Below, one piece after another: positions 12,078 through 21,681 of a DNA stretch of 64,000 nucleotides (within the stretch, counting starts at the first letter, position 1; each line of letters opens with the position of its first letter). Where the stretch lies: assembly GCA_029553475.1 (NCBI GenBank), contig JAKPKV010000082.1, positions 1 to 64,000 of the forward strand, given 5' to 3'. Source of the stretch: Armatimonadota bacterium (GTDB lineage Bacteria; Armatimonadota; Hebobacteria; CAIYQO01). The notes under the pieces are model-generated. The model ran no database searches, was not told the DNA's origin, and saw only the letters and a program-made list of their open reading frames with translations. The position numbers and the translations under genes were made by a program.

Positions 12078-13289
12078 TCATTGCTCAAACGCCATAAACA
12101 TACCAAAATAGGCATTCGCATTGCCACCTGGCGGCCCGAAATGCAGGGTCAGTGGCGTGTCGGGCACCAGTGGCAGTGTCAGTAGATAGATGTTATGGTA
12201 ATCGCCAGTAGCGGTGAGCGTTGCGCCGTTTGTCACGGTCGCGGTTTTCGGGCCGTCGGCGGTGTCGTAGGTGACCGAGGCGCAGGGGAATGTGAATGCC
12301 GCGCCTCCGGACGATTTCGGCGCGTCACGTCGAAGTATGATCGCGACTGTGCGCGCGGTGTTGGCATGCACCTGCGGCACAATGCGGATGCTGCCCGCAA
12401 CCAGCCAGCTATAGGAGGTGCTGCCGTTGCCGGCCAGTGCGGCCTTTGCAGCCGTGACTCCGGGCGTATACGGGGCATTGGTGCCAGCCAGCAGCGTTGG
12501 CGGGGTAGTGCCGTCGTACCACCAGCCGAGCACCGCATTGGCATAATACTGGTCGTTATAGTCTACCAGTGACGGGGGGGCACGCATCCAGTCGGGCTGA
12601 GTGCCATACAGGATGACGGTTCCTGCGGTTTGCGCCGCCAGCAGGTTCGGCATCTTCAGCAAAGTCAAGAGATCTTTGACGGCGAAATTGACCGTCGGCC
12701 AGTTGCCGGAGGCGACATTCTCGGCTGCCACTTTGACTGCCAGTGTTTGCGGCACGCCAAAGATCACGACGTCATCGGCGTTGACGTGTTCGGCATGCCC
12801 GTCCGCATAGCTGACCACGACTTTGCCGAGGTGCCGTGCATCCAGGTGACTGCTGTCACCCACCGTGTAGGGCGTGCCACGCGTATTGGCCTGCATATCC
12901 GCGGTGATGACGGTGCTGGTGGGCCGTTCAATGTCGCCGAGTGCCATGCCGAACAGCCCGGCGTGAAAGCCATACTCCGGCGCGTCATTCGAGCCGCGCC
13001 CGGTTTTCGTCGGGCAGTCATAGATGCTGGGTTCGTTATAGATGTTCAGATAGCCACCCCAGGAGGTGGTCTTCGGATCAGGGAAGAGCGCTTCGCCATG
13101 ATCCTGAATATACATCATCACCGCGAGGGCGATCTGCCGTTGGTTGTTGAGGCAGGTATTCGTGCGCGCCTTCTCGCGTGCCTTTGCAAAGACGGGGAAG
13201 AGCATGGCCGCCAGCATCGCGATGATCGCGATGACGACGAGGAGCTCAATCAGCGTAAAGCCGCCCGGGCGGCGTGGCGTCGTCCACAT
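12078..13289 (-). CDS. Type II/IV pseudopilin, DUF1559-like (copy 1)
   Basis: A 403-residue exported protein with a class III prepilin signal: [20 protein letters not shown] (cleavage expected before Phe, Glu at +5), then [21 protein letters not shown] middle section ends with an [19 protein letters not shown] motif, the 'ADGH' signature common to DUF1559 pseudopilins. The last ~200 residues are Gly/Ser/Thr-rich beta structure without lysines in long runs, suggesting a surface-exposed sandwich. The first ~100 residues are almost the same as in the copy at 18085, while the C-termini differ completely. AAAGGAGA precedes the ATG. It is divergent from the LacI-type regulator at 13415. Confidence 0.9.
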
Positions 13290-13334
13290 CGGTCTCTCCT
13301 TTCAGATGCCGGCGCAGGGCAAAGATATGCTGCG

Positions 13335-13340
13335 ATAATA
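13335..13340 (-). promoter_or_regulatory. -10 element of pseudopilin copy 1
   Basis: Minus-strand TATTAT about 45 bases before the pseudopilin ATG. There is no clear -35 at 16-18 bp, which would fit a promoter needing an activator. The LacI-type operator lies about 45 bp upstream of it. Confidence 0.4.
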
Positions 13341-13351
13341 CCATGCGCGAT

Positions 13352-13381
13352 TTGACGGACAGCCGCGCGCGGCGCAATAAT
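13352..13381 (+). promoter_or_regulatory. Promoter of the LacI-type regulator gene
   Basis: TTGACG (13352-13357), 18-bp spacer, AATAAT (13376-13381); five of six bases match consensus in each box. The start site would fall near 13388, inside the operator palindrome. Confidence 0.65.
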
Positions 13382-13382
13382 G

Positions 13383-13399
13383 ACGCAACATTGTTGCGT
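13383..13399. promoter_or_regulatory. LacI-family operator palindrome, ACGCAACA-T-TGTTGCGT
   Basis: A perfect 17-bp palindrome with a single central base. It begins one base after the -10 box of the regulator's promoter and ends five bases before its ribosome site, so a bound protein would block transcription start. This is the classical place for autorepression. It could also influence the divergent pseudopilin promoter. Confidence 0.75.
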
Positions 13400-13414
13400 A
13401 ACCGGAGAAAGCCA

Positions 13415-14455
13415 TTGACAACCATTCGTTTTCTCGCCAAAATCGCCAACGTCGCGCCCTCTACGGTCAGCCGCGCCCTGCGCGACGACCCCTCGATCGG
13501 GCTCGCCATGCGGCAGCGAATCCGGGAACTGGCGCGGGAATACCATTACCATCCCAACCAGCTCATGCACGGCCTGCTGACCGGCCAGAGCGGGGTGATC
13601 GGCATTGTGCTGCCGCAGCTCACCGTCTCCTTTAACGCCCGCATGCTCTCCGCCATGCTCGACTCGGTGATGGATGCCGAGTACCGCAGCCTCATTTTCG
13701 AAACGTACGGGAATCCGGAGAAAGTCCAGTATGCGGTTCACGCCATGATCGAGCAGCGTGTAGACGGCGCGATTCTCTATACCGGTCGTGCCGCACCGCT
13801 GCCGCGTGAGCTGTTGTTTGGTTTGCGCAGCCACGGCATTCCCGCCATCAGCATTGACGCAACCGGGGAGACGGTGGAACTGGATACCGTACGAACGGAT
13901 GAGCGGGAACTGGTGGGGATCGCGGTAGATTACCTGATCTCACTGGGGCATCGGCACATTGCCTGGTTCAATACCGCGCCGAGTCTCCGCGGAGAGGCCG
14001 TGCGGCACCATCTGGCGCAGCGGCTGCTCTCAACGCGGTGGTGCTTCGATACGCCAGGCACGCCCGGTACCCCGGTGCAGGCGTCGGCCCTGCTCGATCT
14101 GCTATTGGTGGCGCGCCCGGGCCCCACCGCCGTCATTGCCGGGGACGATCATCTCGCGGCGACGATGCTGGCCGCTTGCCATGAGCGGGGAATCACGGTG
14201 CCCGGCGAGATGAGTATCATGGGTTGCGGCAATCTGACGGTCGGCGAATTTACCGCGCCCCGGTTGACGACCATTGACCAGCATCCTGAACAGATCAGCC
14301 GCACCGCCATGCGCCTGTTGCAGTCCCGCATGCGGGACCCGGATGACCCGCGTCCGCCGGCCACCTACTTTATCCCCTGCCAGCTTACGCCGCGAGCATC
14401 ATGTGGGCCCCCGGAGCAGGATCATGCGGGAGCGGGTGACGGCGGAGACAAATAG
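13415..14455 (+). CDS. LacI-family transcriptional regulator
   Basis: A 346-residue one-component regulator. The start is a TTG at 13415 with GGAG at 13404-13407, because the helix-turn-helix then begins in the usual place: LTTIRFLAKIANVAPSTVSR followed by ALRDDPSIG. Further hinge residues are YHYHPNQLMHGL. The C-terminal part is a periplasmic-binding-protein-like effector domain (SGVIGIVLPQLTVSFNARML, then VDGAILYTG, then AVIAGDDHLAATMLAACHERGI and MSIMGCGN), expected to bind a sugar or sugar derivative. The operator 13383-13399 lies on its own transcription start. It is divergent from pseudopilin copy 1, whose expression it may control. Confidence 0.93.
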   Translation: MTTIRFLAKIANVAPSTVSRALRDDPSIGLAMRQRIRELAREYHYHPNQLMHGLLTGQSGVIGIVLPQLTVSFNARMLSAMLDSVMDAEYRSLIFETYGNPEKVQYAVHAMIEQRVDGAILYTGRAAPLPRELLFGLRSHGIPAISIDATGETVELDTVRTDERELVGIAVDYLISLGHRHIAWFNTAPSLRGEAVRHHLAQRLLSTRWCFDTPGTPGTPVQASALLDLLLVARPGPTAVIAGDDHLAATMLAACHERGITVPGEMSIMGCGNLTVGEFTAPRLTTIDQHPEQISRTAMRLLQSRMRDPDDPRPPATYFIPCQLTPRASCGPPEQDHAGAGDGGDK

Positions 14456-14656: not shown

Positions 14657-17600
14657 TCACGCCGCCCACTCGATCACGAGATACGGCGTCGCCACGGCCA
14701 TGATCCACCAGGTATGCGTACGATTGATGGCGTTGCTGGTGAAGGCGGGATCCCCGCGGAAGTGCAGCGCGTCACGGGCATCGGGCGGACGCCAAAGATT
14801 CCAGCGATAGGGCGCGCCGGAGAGCCAGCGGATGTCGCCGCGCTCCCGGTCAATGTCCAGGCCCAAATGGTGGTACACCAGCGTATTGGCCAGCACCACG
14901 GTTGACAGGTAATGCCGCAGTTGCGCATACGTCTCCTCGGTGGCTGGACACACCAGGCAGCCGCCCTGCCATCGGCAGAACGCGATGGCCTCCTCGCGTG
15001 GAAGGTCGAGCGGCAGCGCCAGCACCTGCCGCTCCTCGATGCTGACCGCGAACGCGCGCAAGGCCTGGCGCGCCGCGGGGGCGCCGTGGGGATCGGCGCG
15101 CCAGGCCCGTACCGCCGCCAGCGCGGCGGGCGCCACCGCGCAGACATGGCCGCGCTCATGTCCGTTGATGGATTTGAGCGTCGCGTGCGCCTGTGCCAGC
15201 GCGAGCATCTCATCATCGAGCGTGCAGTATAACTCGCGCAGCGGCAGCGCCGTTAACGTCTCGGCATTGGCGGCATGCAGCGAGATGCGACCGATATGCA
15301 GCTCCGCCAGCGGCACGGTGGCGAGCGGCGTGAGATCGGTGATCGGGGTCTCCGCACAGTTCAACGCCGTCAACGGCATGGCCGCCACCGGGCCGAGATC
15401 GGTGACCGCGGTCCGGCTGCAGTTCAACGCGGTCAGCGCCAGCCCGGCGATGCCGCGCAGCGCGGTCACGCGCGTGGCCGCGCATTCCAGCACCGTGAGC
15501 GGGCACGACGCCAGCGGGGACAGGTCATGGAGAGGGTTGCCGGAGCAGATGAGGGTGCGCAGCGGCACGGATGCCAGCGGGGTGAGATCGGCAATCCGAT
15601 TGTCGTCACACAGCAACATGGTCAGCGGCAGCGTTGCCAACGGCGTCACATCGGTAATCAGGTTGTGGTCGCACAGTAAGGTGCGCAACGGCATCCCGGC
15701 GAGCGGGGTCACGTCCTGAATGCGGTTGTGTCCGCAATGGAGGGTGCGCAACGGCATCCCGGCGAGCGGAGCAAGATCCGTGATCGCGTTCTCCTGCACG
15801 TGACAGTCATACAGCGGCATCCCGGCCAGTGGCGTCAGGTCGCGCAGCCGATTGCGCCCGCAGTACAACCGCGTCAGCGCCATGCCGGCCAGCGGAGCGA
15901 GGTCAGCGATGTCGCCGGCGTGCGCCTGCAGCAGGGAGAGGCGCGCGCCGCGCACCGCCGTCAGGCGCGCGAGCGGGACGGGAATCGTGAGTTCGGTGAT
16001 CGGCAGCCGCGCCAGGTGCGCCAGGATGGTCTCATGCTGCGCCGGGTCAGCGGTCCGCAGGTATTCGAGGAGCTGCTGCGCCAGGTAGGGGTAGATGCCG
16101 TCATCCGGCGAGAGCCGATCCAATTGTTCGGCCACGTCGGCGGTGCCGGCGGCATCATGGCGCGCCGCGCGGTGCAAGGCTAACTCACATAACGCGCGCA
16201 CGCGGAAGGGGTGGTTAGCTTCCGTGATGATCCGCTGCAGCGCCGTTTCTTTCGCCGTGTCCGCGGCGGCCGGGATCGCCAGGGCCGCCAGGTACTGCGC
16301 TTCGTGCTGGGTGCTGATCTCGTGATGCTCGTCAGCGACACGGCGAAACCAGTCCAACGCCTCGTCATGATGCCCGAGGCGCAAGAGCAGCCGGCCCGGT
16401 TCCAGAATATCAACATACCGCGGCGTGCGCCGTTTCCAGATGTGGATACGGTCAATCGCGGCGTCACCGTAATCGCCGAAGCGCCCGATACCCAGGGAAC
16501 GGTGATCGGGACCATACGCCGCAAAGGGTTCGTGATACGTCATGATGCGCTGGCCGTCAACCTCGGCGTAAAAGACATTATTCGAGCGCCACAGCGTGAA
16601 CGTGTAGGCGTCCGCCGCCGGGTCAAGGGTGGTCTGGCAACGGTACAGCGGCTCCCAATACTGGCGGCGCACGGTCTCAAAGACGAGATGGTGGTACCAA
16701 CTGATGCGCAATCGGTACCCGGTGAAGACGTCTCCGGAGATGGCGATGGCCAGATTGAGGCCATCGGGCGCGCTATTCAAGACGCGCACGGCGATCTTCA
16801 CTTCCTCACCGAGGTCCTGGGTGTAGCGCAATGCCGTCCACACCGCGCTGGAGGGGGCGGTGATCCGCACATGGTCGCGCGCATAATTGACCGGGGCGAT
16901 CTCCCCATGGGGGACGGGGGCATCCGCCCCGAAATTCATCCGCTGCGACACCGCCCATTCCCGGGCAAAGGTCGTCGCGTCGGCAACGCTGTGGTCGGAG
17001 ACCAGCATCCAGCCTTCACGCGTCCACCGGGCGAGTTCCATGCCCCGGCGCTCTTCGGCAATGCGCGCCCGCGCGGCTTCCCCGCTCATGCCCTTCCGCA
17101 TGTCGGTGGGCCGCATGCCGAAGTGCCGGAGAAACAGCGTCGAAAAATGCCGATAATCGGCATAGCCCACCCGGTGCGCCACGTCCGCGATGGACAGGTT
17201 GTGGTCGCGCAGCAAGAAGCGCGCGTGCTCACAGCGCACCCGCTTCAGGTATTCCATCGCCGAGAGCTCAAAGTAATGTTTGAACATGCGGCAGAAATAT
17301 TGCGGCACCAGACAGGCGCGCTCGGCCAGCATCTCCAGGGTGATGGGGTCGGCGTAATGCTCATCCAGATACCGCTTAATCGCCAGCCAGGGCGCGGGGA
17401 TCGCGCGCGACGCTGCCGGGGCCTGCAGGAGACGCCGCACCTGGGTGAACCACAACGCCAGGACCTGGCGCGCCACCTCCGGATCCGGGGCGGGGCGGTA
17501 AAAACACTCCTGCCGCAGCGATTGGAAGAGCTGGTCGCATTCGCGGTCGCCATCGAGCGGCACAATGCGCTGGGTGGGCACCGACGATTTGGCGAGGAGA

Positions 17601-17908
17601 TCGAGCACAGCCGCCCCGGTGCAGTGCAGCCAGGAATACTCCCACTCGCCGCCGGCGTGGCCGTAATACTGCCGCTGGCCGGGCTCCCAGATCAGCAGGC
17701 TCGACGGCGGCACATGGTGCTCGACACCCTGGAGCCGCGCCATCGCCGCGGAGTGAAAATAGGTGATCAGGAATCCTTCAACGCCGAGCGGACGATGGAT
17801 GATGCGCGCGGTCGTGATGTCATGGCTGCCCATGCCGAGCACGCGCAAATCCGGCGCGCTCAACAGGGGACTGTCGCGATCGGGGTCATGCGTCTTCACA
17901 TCCGCCAC
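14657..17908 (-). CDS. AraC-family regulator fused to LamG-like, helical-repeat, LRR and C-type-lectin-like domains
   Basis: A 1083-residue protein without signal peptide or membrane segment. Residues 20-150 look like an AraC-type cupin sensor. Residues 176-273 are the double HTH (LDEHYADPITLEMLAERACL, then SIADVAHRVGYADYRHFSTLF). Residues ~300-495 look like a LamG/concanavalin fold (ending IDRIHIWKRR), ~500-650 are helical TPR-like repeats, and ~660-895 hold about ten 23-residue leucine-rich repeats of the form LxxLxCxxNxIxDLxPLAxMP. Residues ~955-1083 resemble a C-type-lectin fold (REEAIAFCRWQGGCLV, then DIRWLSGAPYRWNLW). Start is GTG 17908, very close to GGAGG; GTG 17899 is an alternative. 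It is divergent from pseudopilin copy 2. The domain reading is by eye. Confidence 0.88.
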   Translation of the reverse strand: MADVKTHDPDRDSPLLSAPDLRVLGMGSHDITTARIIHRPLGVEGFLITYFHSAAMARLQGVEHHVPPSSLLIWEPGQRQYYGHAGGEWEYSWLHCTGAAVLDLLAKSSVPTQRIVPLDGDRECDQLFQSLRQECFYRPAPDPEVARQVLALWFTQVRRLLQAPAASRAIPAPWLAIKRYLDEHYADPITLEMLAERACLVPQYFCRMFKHYFELSAMEYLKRVRCEHARFLLRDHNLSIADVAHRVGYADYRHFSTLFLRHFGMRPTDMRKGMSGEAARARIAEERRGMELARWTREGWMLVSDHSVADATTFAREWAVSQRMNFGADAPVPHGEIAPVNYARDHVRITAPSSAVWTALRYTQDLGEEVKIAVRVLNSAPDGLNLAIAISGDVFTGYRLRISWYHHLVFETVRRQYWEPLYRCQTTLDPAADAYTFTLWRSNNVFYAEVDGQRIMTYHEPFAAYGPDHRSLGIGRFGDYGDAAIDRIHIWKRRTPRYVDILEPGRLLLRLGHHDEALDWFRRVADEHHEISTQHEAQYLAALAIPAAADTAKETALQRIITEANHPFRVRALCELALHRAARHDAAGTADVAEQLDRLSPDDGIYPYLAQQLLEYLRTADPAQHETILAHLARLPITELTIPVPLARLTAVRGARLSLLQAHAGDIADLAPLAGMALTRLYCGRNRLRDLTPLAGMPLYDCHVQENAITDLAPLAGMPLRTLHCGHNRIQDVTPLAGMPLRTLLCDHNLITDVTPLATLPLTMLLCDDNRIADLTPLASVPLRTLICSGNPLHDLSPLASCPLTVLECAATRVTALRGIAGLALTALNCSRTAVTDLGPVAAMPLTALNCAETPITDLTPLATVPLAELHIGRISLHAANAETLTALPLRELYCTLDDEMLALAQAHATLKSINGHERGHVCAVAPAALAAVRAWRADPHGAPAARQALRAFAVSIEERQVLALPLDLPREEAIAFCRWQGGCLVCPATEETYAQLRHYLSTVVLANTLVYHHLGLDIDRERGDIRWLSGAPYRWNLWRPPDARDALHFRGDPAFTSNAINRTHTWWIMAVATPYLVIEWAA

Positions 17909-17962
17909 ACCTCCACATGACTAGCATGCGGCAAGAGCGCACCGAAAGTCAAGATCATACAC

Positions 17963-17976
17963 ATCTTCATGAAGAT
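17963..17976. promoter_or_regulatory. Perfect palindrome ATCTTCATGAAGAT, candidate regulator site
   Basis: A 14-bp perfect palindrome in the divergent gap between the AraC fusion gene and pseudopilin copy 2. It is upstream of a minus-strand TTGACT (17947-17952), a possible -35 for the araC gene. AraC sites are usually direct repeats, so a second regulator cannot be excluded. Confidence 0.4.
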
Positions 17977-18004
17977 CGCATACATGTGGCGGACCGCTGC
18001 CGCG

Positions 18005-18010
18005 TACAAT
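18005..18010 (+). promoter_or_regulatory. Possible -10 (TACAAT) of pseudopilin copy 2
   Basis: TACAAT about 75 bases before the ATG at 18085, without a matching -35 (ACATGT at 17 bp). A promoter lacking a -35 beside an AraC-type gene fits activator dependence. Confidence 0.35.
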
Positions 18011-18084
18011 GAGATCGGTTCGCGCCGCCGGGGGACAGCGACGGTCTGCGCTCTTGACGGCAAATCTTTTCCTGGGAGGTCGCC

Positions 18085-19293
18085 ATGCATGCATCCACAC
18101 GAGGCTTCACCCTCATCGAACTCCTGGTCGTGATCGCCATTATCGCGATTCTGGCCGCCATCCTCTTCCCGGTATTCGCCAAAGCGCGGGAGAAAGCGCG
18201 CACGAATACCTGCCTGAACAACCAGCGCCAGATCGCGCTGGCGGTCATGATGTATGTTCAGGATTACGAGGAAACCTTCTTCCCCGATCCGGGCAGCGCG
18301 TCCTGGGCGGGCTACCTGCGGGCGTATAACGAGCCCACCCTCTATGACTGCCCCACCAAGACCGGCAAAGGCAGCAGCGCCAGGCCGGAGTATGGCGTCA
18401 ACTACACGCTGTTCGGCAAAGCGCTCGGCGACATTGCCACCCCCTCCAGCGCGCTCTTGACCACCGACCTGGCGATGGCCGGGGCGCAGCCCAACTACGC
18501 GCTGAAAGACTATACGCAGGACCTGGACGCCCGGCATAACAAGGGCCTCGTGCTCTCCTGTATTGACGGGCACGTCGCGGTGGAGTCCCTCGACAAGAGC
18601 ACGCCCCCCATCTTCATCACGCTGATGAACCGCGGGTATGAGTTTTTCCCGGCGGCGGAGCTCGTCGCGACCTATCCGGGGCCCTACACCGCGGCCAATA
18701 GCGCCGCCAACATGTCGGCCCGCAAGGTCGGCCCGGATATCCCCGCCCAATTATTGAAAGCCGCGGACGGCACCGTCCCGGATATTCGCATCGAGCTGGA
18801 GATGTATGCCAACCGGTATACGAATGATAATCAGCGTCACGGCTTCACCGTCTTTGACCCCAGCACCACCTCCACCACGGTCACCAGCGACGCCAGCATG
18901 GCGTCCATCCTCCCCTGGGCCAATTGCGTGTTCGTCGGGCAAAACCTCTGGTCAACGGATCTGGTGCTGTGCGTGCGCGCATCCGGCATCACCAACTATA
19001 GCGCGCATACCGGCGCGCTGACGTCAGCCGCGGGAGGGACCGCCGCCGGATTGCCCGGCTATACCACGGCATCCGGGGTGTACTTCCGCTGGACCTACAC
19101 CCTGCTGGGCGGCAAGACCCACATCGCGGCCATTGGCCCCCTGGGGGGCGCCAATGTCTATTCGCTCGTCGCCACGGCCGATGTCAGCGCCATCATGGCC
19201 GCCCCCAACAACCACATTTGCTCCTACGTGGCCTCGAACACGGCCGGCAGCGTGCACTGTGCGCTCCGCAATCTCAAGTTCAGCGTGCTGTAA
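18085..19293 (+). CDS. Type II/IV pseudopilin, DUF1559-like (copy 2)
   Basis: A 402-residue exported protein starting at ATG 18085 behind GGGAGGT. It carries the prepilin signal [20 protein letters not shown] followed by [20 protein letters not shown], then [19 protein letters not shown], and the signature [20 protein letters not shown]. The last ~220 residues are a beta-rich, Thr/Ala/Gly-rich region unlike that of copy 1, with a [20 protein letters not shown] pair of cysteines. After cleavage by a prepilin peptidase (not in the window) it would join a pilus-like or secretion structure at the cell surface. It is divergent from the AraC fusion, the mirror image of the copy 1/LacI pair. Confidence 0.9.
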
Positions 19294-19411: not shown

Positions 19412-19578
19412 AGAGGCCGTGTGGACAAGCCCGCAGCCCGATTCAGCGCCATCGTGTTCCGCCTGTCTTTGTCGTGAATTATTGCGCTATCGTCCGCTGA
19501 TAGGGCTGCGAATTCACTTCGCGACAGACGAAACAATCTGCCGCTGACTCGGACTCCGTGCTTGTCCACACGGCCTCT
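19412..19578. mobile_element. MITE-like element with perfect 19-bp terminal inverted repeats
   Basis: Termini 19412-19430 (AGAGGCCGTGTGGACAAGC) and 19560-19578 are exact reverse complements; the element is 167 bp and too small to code. The interior is lower in GC and shows a second, imperfect inverted region around GTGAATT/AATTCAC. The ends resemble those of IS4/IS5-type transposons (from memory). I see no clear target duplication: TA lies on the left but not the right. The right end abuts the stop of the next gene. Confidence 0.65.
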
Positions 19579-20545
19579 CAGAACGGTTTGGGGGGCATGG
19601 CGGCAAAGTGGGCCTGCAACCGCCGGCGGGCCTCTGCCAGTTCGGCCGGGCTATAGCGCGGCATCGTGACCGTTACGCTCCGCGCCGCCACCTCCACGCC
19701 GACATCAATGCCGGCCTTTGCCGCCAATTGCTCAAGCGCCACATCGCAGATCCGCAGGGAGCACCCGCCGGCGTCCGGACCCCCGCGATGGCTCGGGTAG
19801 ACCAAAATGACGGCCGTCCTGGTATCGTTGAGGCGATCAACTAACGCCAGCAGGAGAGCCGGGTCATCAAGAACCCGCGCGTTGGCGGCAATGAACGCCA
19901 CGTCAACCCGCGATGTCCCACCGATGATGCGATCGCGCGTACGCTGCGTGGCCTCGCGATTCCCCAGTCGCGCGAGCACCAGATCCATGGCGGCGGGCAC
20001 GTTCACGGCTTCGCCGATCGGGCCGCGCGTCTTCTCCAATGATCGGCTTGCCGCTAATTTGCCGAACTGCTCCTGCTCGCCGTCCCTGGGGGGCAACGTG
20101 GCGAGCAGGAGCAGTGCCTCGGCCGCCATCGTGGAGCGCTCGATCAAGCGGAGCAGGTTGTCACGGAGCTGCGCGCCTCCCCACCGCCGAACGTCGTGCT
20201 CGCTGTACCGCCCATACAGTGCCTGAACGGCCGCTGTGCCGATTTCGTCACGTCCTCATCAACGACTAATGCCGTTAAGATGCTCACCGCCCCCGGCGAT
20301 GTACTCCGGCGAGCGAGCGGAATGAGCATCCCGCGCACAGACGGGTCCGCATCGGTAATATATTTGGGCAGATACGGCAATGATGCGTGAATATCCAACT
20401 CGGCGAGAGCGCCGTTATCGCCTGTTTTCAGACGGGCAAACGCCTCGTCAACCCGTTGAGCAACCTGTTGATCCGGATCGCCGCCCGCCGCGTTCACCGG
20501 CGGACACATCATGCCGATGCCGAGGAGCGCTATGAGCGCCGTCAC
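19578..20545 (-). pseudogene. Secreted HEAT-like-repeat protein, disrupted by a one-base frameshift
   Basis: Two overlapping minus-strand frames form one protein. The first (from GTG 20545, with AAGGTG upstream) has a signal-peptide-like start, VTALIALLGIGMMCPPVNAA, and continues to DEDVTKSAQ. Shifting frame within 20231-20240 restores a natural continuation, AAVQALYGRYSEHDVRRWGG, then LRLIERSTMAAEALLLLATL, to the stop at 19578. Adding one G (giving GCA CAG GCG GCC) would join the frames, so a one-base deletion or a sequencing error explains it. Repeated helical pairs around DPSVRGMLIPLARRSTSPGA suggest HEAT-like repeats. The function is unknown. The MITE-like element ends at its stop codon. 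Confidence 0.7.
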
Positions 20546-20560
20546 CTCGCACCTTGCTCT

Positions 20561-20602
20561 GTAGTCCGCACCCGTGTCCGACACCACCATCATCGGGCAC
20601 GG
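20561..20602. repeat. Second copy of the R3 core
   Basis: Begins GTAGTCCGC like the copy at 5341; the 31 bases 20572-20602 match 5383-5413 with 2-3 mismatches. CCGTGTCC pairs with GGGCACGG (one G-T) around CACCACCATC. The long outer arms of the first copy are missing here. Confidence 0.75.
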
Positions 20603-20880: not shown

Positions 20881-21681
20881 TTACGGTCCTGGCGAGAGCG
20901 CAACGCAACGGAACCCGAGGACCTCGACCCAGTAGTACGGGCTGTAGCCGCTGCTGAACGCGCAGCGGCAGCTGTACCCGATGCCGCTGTACCACGAGCC
21001 GCCCCGCAGCACGCGGCGCTCTCCCGTCGCCGGGCCGGACGGGTTCGTCACCGGCATGAAGGAATACGATCCCCGCCAGTCCGCGCACCACTCCCACACA
21101 TTCCCCGCCAGGTCGTGCGCCTCGCACCAACTCGCCCCCGCCGGGAAGCTGCCGGCCGGCCAGGTGCTGATGCCCTGATCGTGCGAGTTGTACCTGTTCG
21201 CGCACTTCGTCGGGTCCCACCCGTGTAACTCGTTACTCGCCGTCGCGACGCCGCCCCACGGGTAGTTGCGCCCTTCCGGCCCGCGCGCGGCGTATTCCCA
21301 CTGCGCCTCGGTGGGGAGTGCCACGCCCGCCCAATCCGTATACGCTTTGGCGCCGTGCCAGGTGATGTTCACGATGGGGTGGTTTTGCAGCGCCGGGTCG
21401 GCCCAGCCGGATTTGCCCGTCCAGCTATACCCTGACGGGAACTCCGGCAGCGCCCGCCCCGTCGCCGTACAGAAGGCGCGGTATTGCGCCACCGTCACCG
21501 CGTACTGGTAGATCCAGTAGCCGGAGAGCGTCACCGGGTGGGCGGGGCGTTCATCGTCACCCCCTACGCCGTCAATGCTGCCCATGGTGAATGTGCCCCC
21601 CGGCACCCACACCAGGGCCGCGCCATCACTGGCGTTCGTCTTCGCGCCGTAGATGGTGGCGCCGCCGCTGTCTGTCCGCAT
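20881..21681 (-). CDS. SUMF1/FGE-sulfatase domain protein
   Basis: A 266-residue single-domain protein of the formylglycine-generating-enzyme superfamily: VWVPGGTFTMGSIDGVGGDD, then YWIYQYAVTVAQYRAFC, VNITWHGAKAYTDWAG, LPTEAQWEYAARG, AHDLAGNVWEWCADW, RVLRGGSWYS and LGFRCVA. AAGGAGT precedes the ATG at 21681. In true FGE two cysteines five residues apart near the C-terminus bind copper; here the region reads YSCRCAF and the upstream position aligns with Gly, so oxidase activity is doubtful. It may be a non-catalytic or differently acting family member. A sulfatase with a CxPSR motif is encoded 11 kb away, but a link is only inference. Confidence 0.85.
   Translation of the reverse strand: MRTDSGGATIYGAKTNASDGAALVWVPGGTFTMGSIDGVGGDDERPAHPVTLSGYWIYQYAVTVAQYRAFCTATGRALPEFPSGYSWTGKSGWADPALQNHPIVNITWHGAKAYTDWAGVALPTEAQWEYAARGPEGRNYPWGGVATASNELHGWDPTKCANRYNSHDQGISTWPAGSFPAGASWCEAHDLAGNVWEWCADWRGSYSFMPVTNPSGPATGERRVLRGGSWYSGIGYSCRCAFSSGYSPYYWVEVLGFRCVALSPGP

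Follow-up and report, generated by a model that had tools for sequence, protein, structure and literature searches.

An AraC-type regulator of an Armatimonadota bacterium carries, in the same polypeptide, a large four-part tail. By profile comparison, this tail is homologous to that of Verrucomicrobiota Hanks serine/threonine kinases, and its parts stand in the same order. The gene lies on the minus strand at 14657-17908 of the window, the whole stretch of 64,000 nucleotides that was analysed, and is placed head-to-head with a pilin-like gene. Copies of it occur in two species of one genus. The novelty lies in the union of this tail with a DNA-binding output, as the parts themselves are of known kinds. 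DNA binding, the ligand and the direction of control we infer, and these are worded below as predictions.

Anatomy of the Fusion Protein

An earlier note on this DNA had singled out an unusual AraC-type open reading frame of 1083 residues, and the frame 14657-17908 (minus) is confirmed. The GC content at its codon positions is 68/48/83%, and GC3 is even across all three thirds, so the whole length is a single coding frame. The annotated protein has 1083 residues. Since the sequence GGAGG lies only 1 nt 5' of the annotated GTG and 10 nt 5' of the next in-frame GTG (codon 4, at 17899), and since a paralog likewise begins with 'MK' at the position matching codon 4, translation probably begins at 17899, for a protein of 1080 residues. 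No transmembrane segment or signal peptide is evident from 19-residue hydropathy over the 1083 residues, because the maximum mean is 1.3; here the earlier note had reached the same view.

The order of domains is AraC cupin, AraC helix-turn-helix (HTH), concanavalin (ConA)/LamG-like sandwich, tetratricopeptide (TPR)-like helices, ten leucine-rich repeats (LRRs) of 21 residues, short helices and a C-type-lectin-like domain (CTLD). The N-terminal cupin or ligand-binding domain (residues 15-165, 17414-17866, minus) has a Pfam AraC_binding match at 58-132 with an E value of 3.4e-7, which exceeds the Pfam curated cut-off, and AraC N-domain chains appear weakly in a PDB search. The AraC/XylS double HTH (residues 175-274, 17087-17386, minus) is matched by HTH_18 at 2e-21 and HTH_AraC at 2.5e-15 over residues 194-272. 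Both hallmarks of AraC/XylS regulators, cupin and double HTH, are therefore present, as is the placement divergent to a probable target. Typical members of that family have about 300 residues and a C-terminal HTH, which is true of most, not all. The nearest relatives of the fusion protein are open frames of about 270-330 residues from Armatimonadota (L018) and Verrucomicrobiota (L212-L240), whereas the fusion protein has its HTH in mid-protein, followed by about 800 extra residues.

The first part of the tail is a concanavalin/LamG-like beta sandwich (residues 301-497, 16418-17008, minus). An AlphaFold2 model of residues 274-618 with four homologs (the A2 model, pLDDT 81.5) shows a jelly-roll sandwich followed by helical hairpins, and Foldseek places this region among the concanavalin-like lectins and carbohydrate-binding modules of the PDB, with the L-type lectin VIP36 (1.8e-8), CBM66 and galectin-8. 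By sequence, Pfam LamG does not match the fusion protein. The hairpins, helices 225-344 of the A2 model with weak Pfam TPR matches, form the TPR-like part (residues 498-645, 15974-16417, minus).

The LRR region (residues 657-887, 15248-15940, minus) comprises ten clear repeats at 657-866 and one degenerate repeat. These are tandem LxxLxLxxN units, exemplified by LRTLHCGHNRIQDVTPLAGMP, with a Pfam LRR_4 match at 5e-18. Autocorrelation gives 102 identities at lag 21 against 10 at lag 23. The PDB search finds LRR similarity to internalin (1o6s, E 1e-28) and to a Roco protein (5il7, E 1e-39). Internalins are secreted or lie on the cell surface, and Roco proteins contain a GTPase; the fusion protein differs from them in its period of 21 and its DNA-binding output.

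Post-LRR helices (residues 888-955, 15044-15247, minus), seen in a second AlphaFold2 model, lead to the CTLD (residues 956-1083, 14660-15043, minus). This A3 model covers residues 893-1083, was built with five homologs and is of intermediate confidence (pLDDT 76, pTM 0.79; other models 52-62). The Foldseek matches listed are all C-type lectin domains (mannose receptor CRD4 at 3.5e-4, mincle, collectins; probability 1.00). Pfam Lectin_C is weak in three of the five homologs, at best 0.0066, and the fold assignment draws on the predicted structure together with homology to kinase tails that match Lectin_C at 1e-10. The EPN/QPD and WND motif for Ca2+ and sugar of C-type lectins is not conserved in the alignment of the five homologs, so Ca2+-dependent sugar binding by the CTLD is not supported, and on this ground a protein partner would be at least as likely for the tail as an internalised glycan.

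The domain identities proposed in the earlier note thus held at the level of fold: LamG-like for 300-495, helical repeats before the LRRs, and lectin-like for 955-1083. Its count of about ten LRRs stood; its repeat length of 23 residues gave way to 21.

The Pfam scan of the fusion protein gave no Pkinase match, AraC standing in its place, and no NACHT/NB-ARC NTPase. The protein resembles NLR/STAND intracellular receptors in its working, as a cytosolic LRR recognition region joined to an output domain, and is no member of that group; unlike them, it has no NTPase domain match and its predicted output is direct DNA binding.

Copies Within the Genus

A full-length paralog on another contig of the same genome (G000:C76) shares 52% identity over residues 12-1082, and a full-length copy in another MAG, from a second species of the genus (UR.bin144, "Armatimonadetes"; G001:C763), shares 41% over 12-1083. 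These copies rule out an assembly join or chimera of two genes, which the earlier note had allowed for. The second species also has two partial copies: C28, interrupted by a frame change, and C318, truncated at a contig end. The split copy occupies L020 1474-3984 and 4136-4750, with the frame change in the LRR region, and is either a sequencing error or a pseudogene. Identity between the window protein and the C76 paralog runs at 47-59% across the main domains (HTH 59%, ConA part 53%). By their AraC halves, the four fused copies group as a single, moderately supported clade (89/89), which fits one fusion with later duplication; by this phylogeny, an AraC ancestor probably gained the tail once and was then duplicated.

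Among 291 Armatimonadota genomes, full-length matches to the profile of sandwich and helices are confined to the two genomes of the genus, four other genomes matching weakly in the TPR-like part only. Likewise, only these two match the CTLD profile. An LRR query finds high similarity only in the same two genomes of the phylum; two further genera have LRR proteins that match less well. No AraC-linked tail was found elsewhere among the 291 genomes, and a search of one literature collection found no description of AraC-LRR fusions or of tailed Verrucomicrobiota kinases.

Within the LRR unit, the paralogs differ most on the presumed recognition surface. Between the window protein and the C76 paralog, the five exposed beta-strand (concave) positions of the repeats are identical at 5/50 sites, about the level found between repeats within one protein (12%). 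The three exposed convex-side positions are identical at 14/30 sites and the scaffold positions at 56/70. The contrast has a Fisher P of 3e-4, in a post hoc test on one protein pair. Against the more distant C763 copy both exposed classes are saturated, so that significant divergence is seen in one paralog pair only. Since the concave face has diverged while scaffold and HTH are kept, the pattern fits paralogs tuned to different partners.

The Same Tail on Kinases of Verrucomicrobiota

LRR modules of the 'LxCxxNxIxDLxPLxGMP' type occur on serine/threonine kinases of Lentisphaerota and Planctomycetota. The earlier note had pointed to this link. In the Verrucomicrobiota sample it holds for the entire tail, which Hanks kinases carry with its parts in unchanged order. 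In 388 genomes of this phylum, that of Pelagicoccus mobilis, the LRR profile matches 89 genomes, many of the matches lying in open frames some 1000-1250 residues long. Most of the 49 such proteins extracted have a Hanks kinase motif, and the AraC profile matches none of the 49. The complete series of ConA-like sandwich, TPR-like helices, 21-residue LRR, helices and CTLD is found on kinases L118, L127, L128 and L148, all without a TM-like run. L130, L131 and L135, read as kinases by eye, also have the complete tail and no TM-like run. Pfam identifies Pkinase in L127 and L118 (3e-36 and 2e-35), with LRR_4 and Lectin_C (1e-10 and 1e-5).

Two kinds of profile search join the families. Tail profiles used in hmmsearch reach E values of 3e-8 and 8e-7, both on L118. 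By hhalign, the window family aligns with the kinases over 205 columns of the sandwich/TPR region (probability 96, E 4.4e-9) and over 120 columns of the CTLD (probability 97.5, E 5.1e-12); for mismatched pairs and for 40 column-shuffled controls, E was never below 0.03. The four named kinases share with the fusion protein the four modules and their order, and have the LRR consensus LxxLxCxxNxIxxLxPLxGMP. Their open frames are of about 1040-1190 residues, several without an evident membrane segment. They differ in output, a protein kinase in place of AraC cupin and HTH; the fusion protein thus has the tail of these kinases and no kinase domain.

With a profile of the full-length fused protein, the matches listed from the 388 Verrucomicrobiota genomes fall into two sets, and none among them spans both parts: matches to the AraC part lie for the most part in open frames of 270-330 residues, and those to the tail mainly in long proteins. 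A search for the architecture across phyla, proposed in the earlier note, therefore yields the tail on Verrucomicrobiota kinases and, among the matches listed, the AraC-linked version only in the two genomes of the genus (388 Verrucomicrobiota and 291 Armatimonadota genomes). One Verrucomicrobiota genome (G455) has at least five kinases or kinase-like proteins with the complete tail (L107, L127, L128, L135, L148), a paralog expansion for which no functional description was found. L142, a 780-residue Verrucomicrobiota open frame without a kinase motif, has ConA-LRR-CTLD-like parts that follow one membrane segment, and by this example the tail may also exist without a catalytic output.

The Pilin-like Neighbor and a Candidate Operator

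The fusion gene is separated by 176 bp from a divergent gene with Pfam N_methyl and DUF1559 matches (18085-19293, plus), its probable target, and the same head-to-head layout recurs at C76 and at G001:C763. The copy on G001:C28 faces a long open frame and not a pilin-like gene (L205 3501-6197, minus, against L205 6435-8966, plus), which starts with a hydrophobic secretion-like N terminus and a stretch resembling LamG. Pilin-like matches in the genome number 117. Among its 16 AraC loci found, six stand head-to-head with a pilin-like gene, where about 0.2 such pairs would be expected by chance (from our own estimate of roughly 4,700 genes), and one more of the 16 lies just upstream of a pilin-like gene in the same direction.

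The intergenic region contains a direct repeat, AAGATCATACACAT / AAGATCGCATACAT (17951-17985, plus), as candidate paired AraC half-sites, matching at 11/14 positions with a start-to-start distance of 21 bp (shuffle P = 0.0015 at spacing 21 and 0.014 over spacings 20-22). This is the spacing of classical AraC half-sites. Comparison of the two paralogs gave the candidate operator TCGCATACATGTGGC (17976-17990, plus), which is the second of the two repeats; ATCGCATACAT is common to the window and C76 intergenic regions, 109 and 108 bp before the respective pilin ATG (11-mer shuffle P 0.01). It falls within 17909-18084, the region that the earlier note had proposed for a test of DNA binding. The 5.27 Mb genome holds three exact copies of TCGCATACATNNGGC, two of them in these two intergenic regions. 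The third copy (C151) was considered as an operator and discounted as chance, being inside a PQQ-like coding frame. The 21-bp repeat is not clear in C76, and the candidate operator was not found at the G001 copies. By eye, it sits at about the -35 position relative to TACAAT/TAAAAT; a promoter and terminator consensus scan found neither.

The pilin-like genes facing fused regulators differ at their C-terminus, with a weak F5/8-type match (L002 5025-6119), a weak DUF4082 match (L017 117-1127) and no Pfam match (window 18085-19293). Judged by sequence, the set looks like surface adhesins that vary downstream of an unchanging pilin N terminus. Elsewhere in the window, the genes at 12078-13289 (minus) and 13274-14455 (plus) form another head-to-head pair, of a pilin-like gene and a LacI-family regulator. 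Pilin-like genes paired with a dedicated regulator seem to recur in this genome. Two overlapping short frames at 19578-20593 (minus) may be one frame-shifted protein; they adjoin an FGE-sulfatase-domain gene (20881-21681).

Proposed Mechanism and Alternatives

The reading that we favor, and consider reasonably probable, is a one-component cytosolic receptor of AraC ancestry, whose tail would recognize a partner and control the adjacent surface-protein gene. The HTH pair would bind the intergenic element at 17951-17990, adjoining or overlying the pilin -35 region. The LRR concave face and both lectin-type folds would hold the partner, in all likelihood a protein or polymer, and its binding would change AraC dimerization or HTH exposure, by which the pilin-like gene would be switched. 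The N-terminal cupin may provide a second, small-molecule input or a dimer interface. Paralogs would read different ligands and act on different target genes.

It is conceivable, if rather doubtful, that the tail is a scaffold and not a sensor. It would then fasten the regulator to some other cytosolic complex, or tie several regulators together, and the response would depend on the small-molecule cupin alone, as it does in ordinary AraC proteins. In favor of this, the cupin has been retained with its motifs, LRR and TPR modules often bind proteins, and no sugar motif is conserved in the CTLD. However, a concave face fully diverged between paralogs on a kept scaffold suits different partners better than one common partner, and on the kinases the same tail would be the sole evident input region.

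Sensing of an imported polysaccharide, with both lectin-type folds binding glycans in the cytosol and inducing a surface protein that captures the same glycan, we regard as unlikely. The nearest folds of the ConA-like part are lectins and CBM66, a sulfatase, an MGH1-like glycosidase and the LacI regulator lie in the neighborhood, and the weak F5/8-type and DUF4082 matches of the pilin-like targets would suit such a role; yet the canonical EPN/QPD motif is not conserved, intact polymers are not usually imported, and ConA-like folds often have no sugar site. That the fusion has no function, as an assembly accident or a decaying gene, is very improbable: the frame-shifted G001:C28 copy and the origin of the data in MAGs speak for it, but it is contradicted by independent full-length copies, with three intact frames over two MAGs, similar identity in all main domains and little divergence of LRR scaffold sites relative to exposed ones.

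Significance

Returning to the one-component receptor, a broader claim may be made tentatively, with somewhat less than even expectation: that a bacterial intracellular pattern-recognition receptor can be the transcription factor itself. Here LRRs and lectin folds, with a concave surface diversified by duplication, would switch a dedicated surface-protein gene without a kinase, an NTPase or a second component, and evolution would have swapped the tail module between kinase and DNA-binding outputs.

One large recognition tail has two outputs in different phyla, a kinase and a promoter. Because the output of the fusion protein would be a neighboring promoter, the ligand of the whole tail family, kinases included, becomes testable by a simple reporter assay. 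The finding also bears on how bacteria rich in pilin-like surface genes may pair single genes with dedicated regulators.
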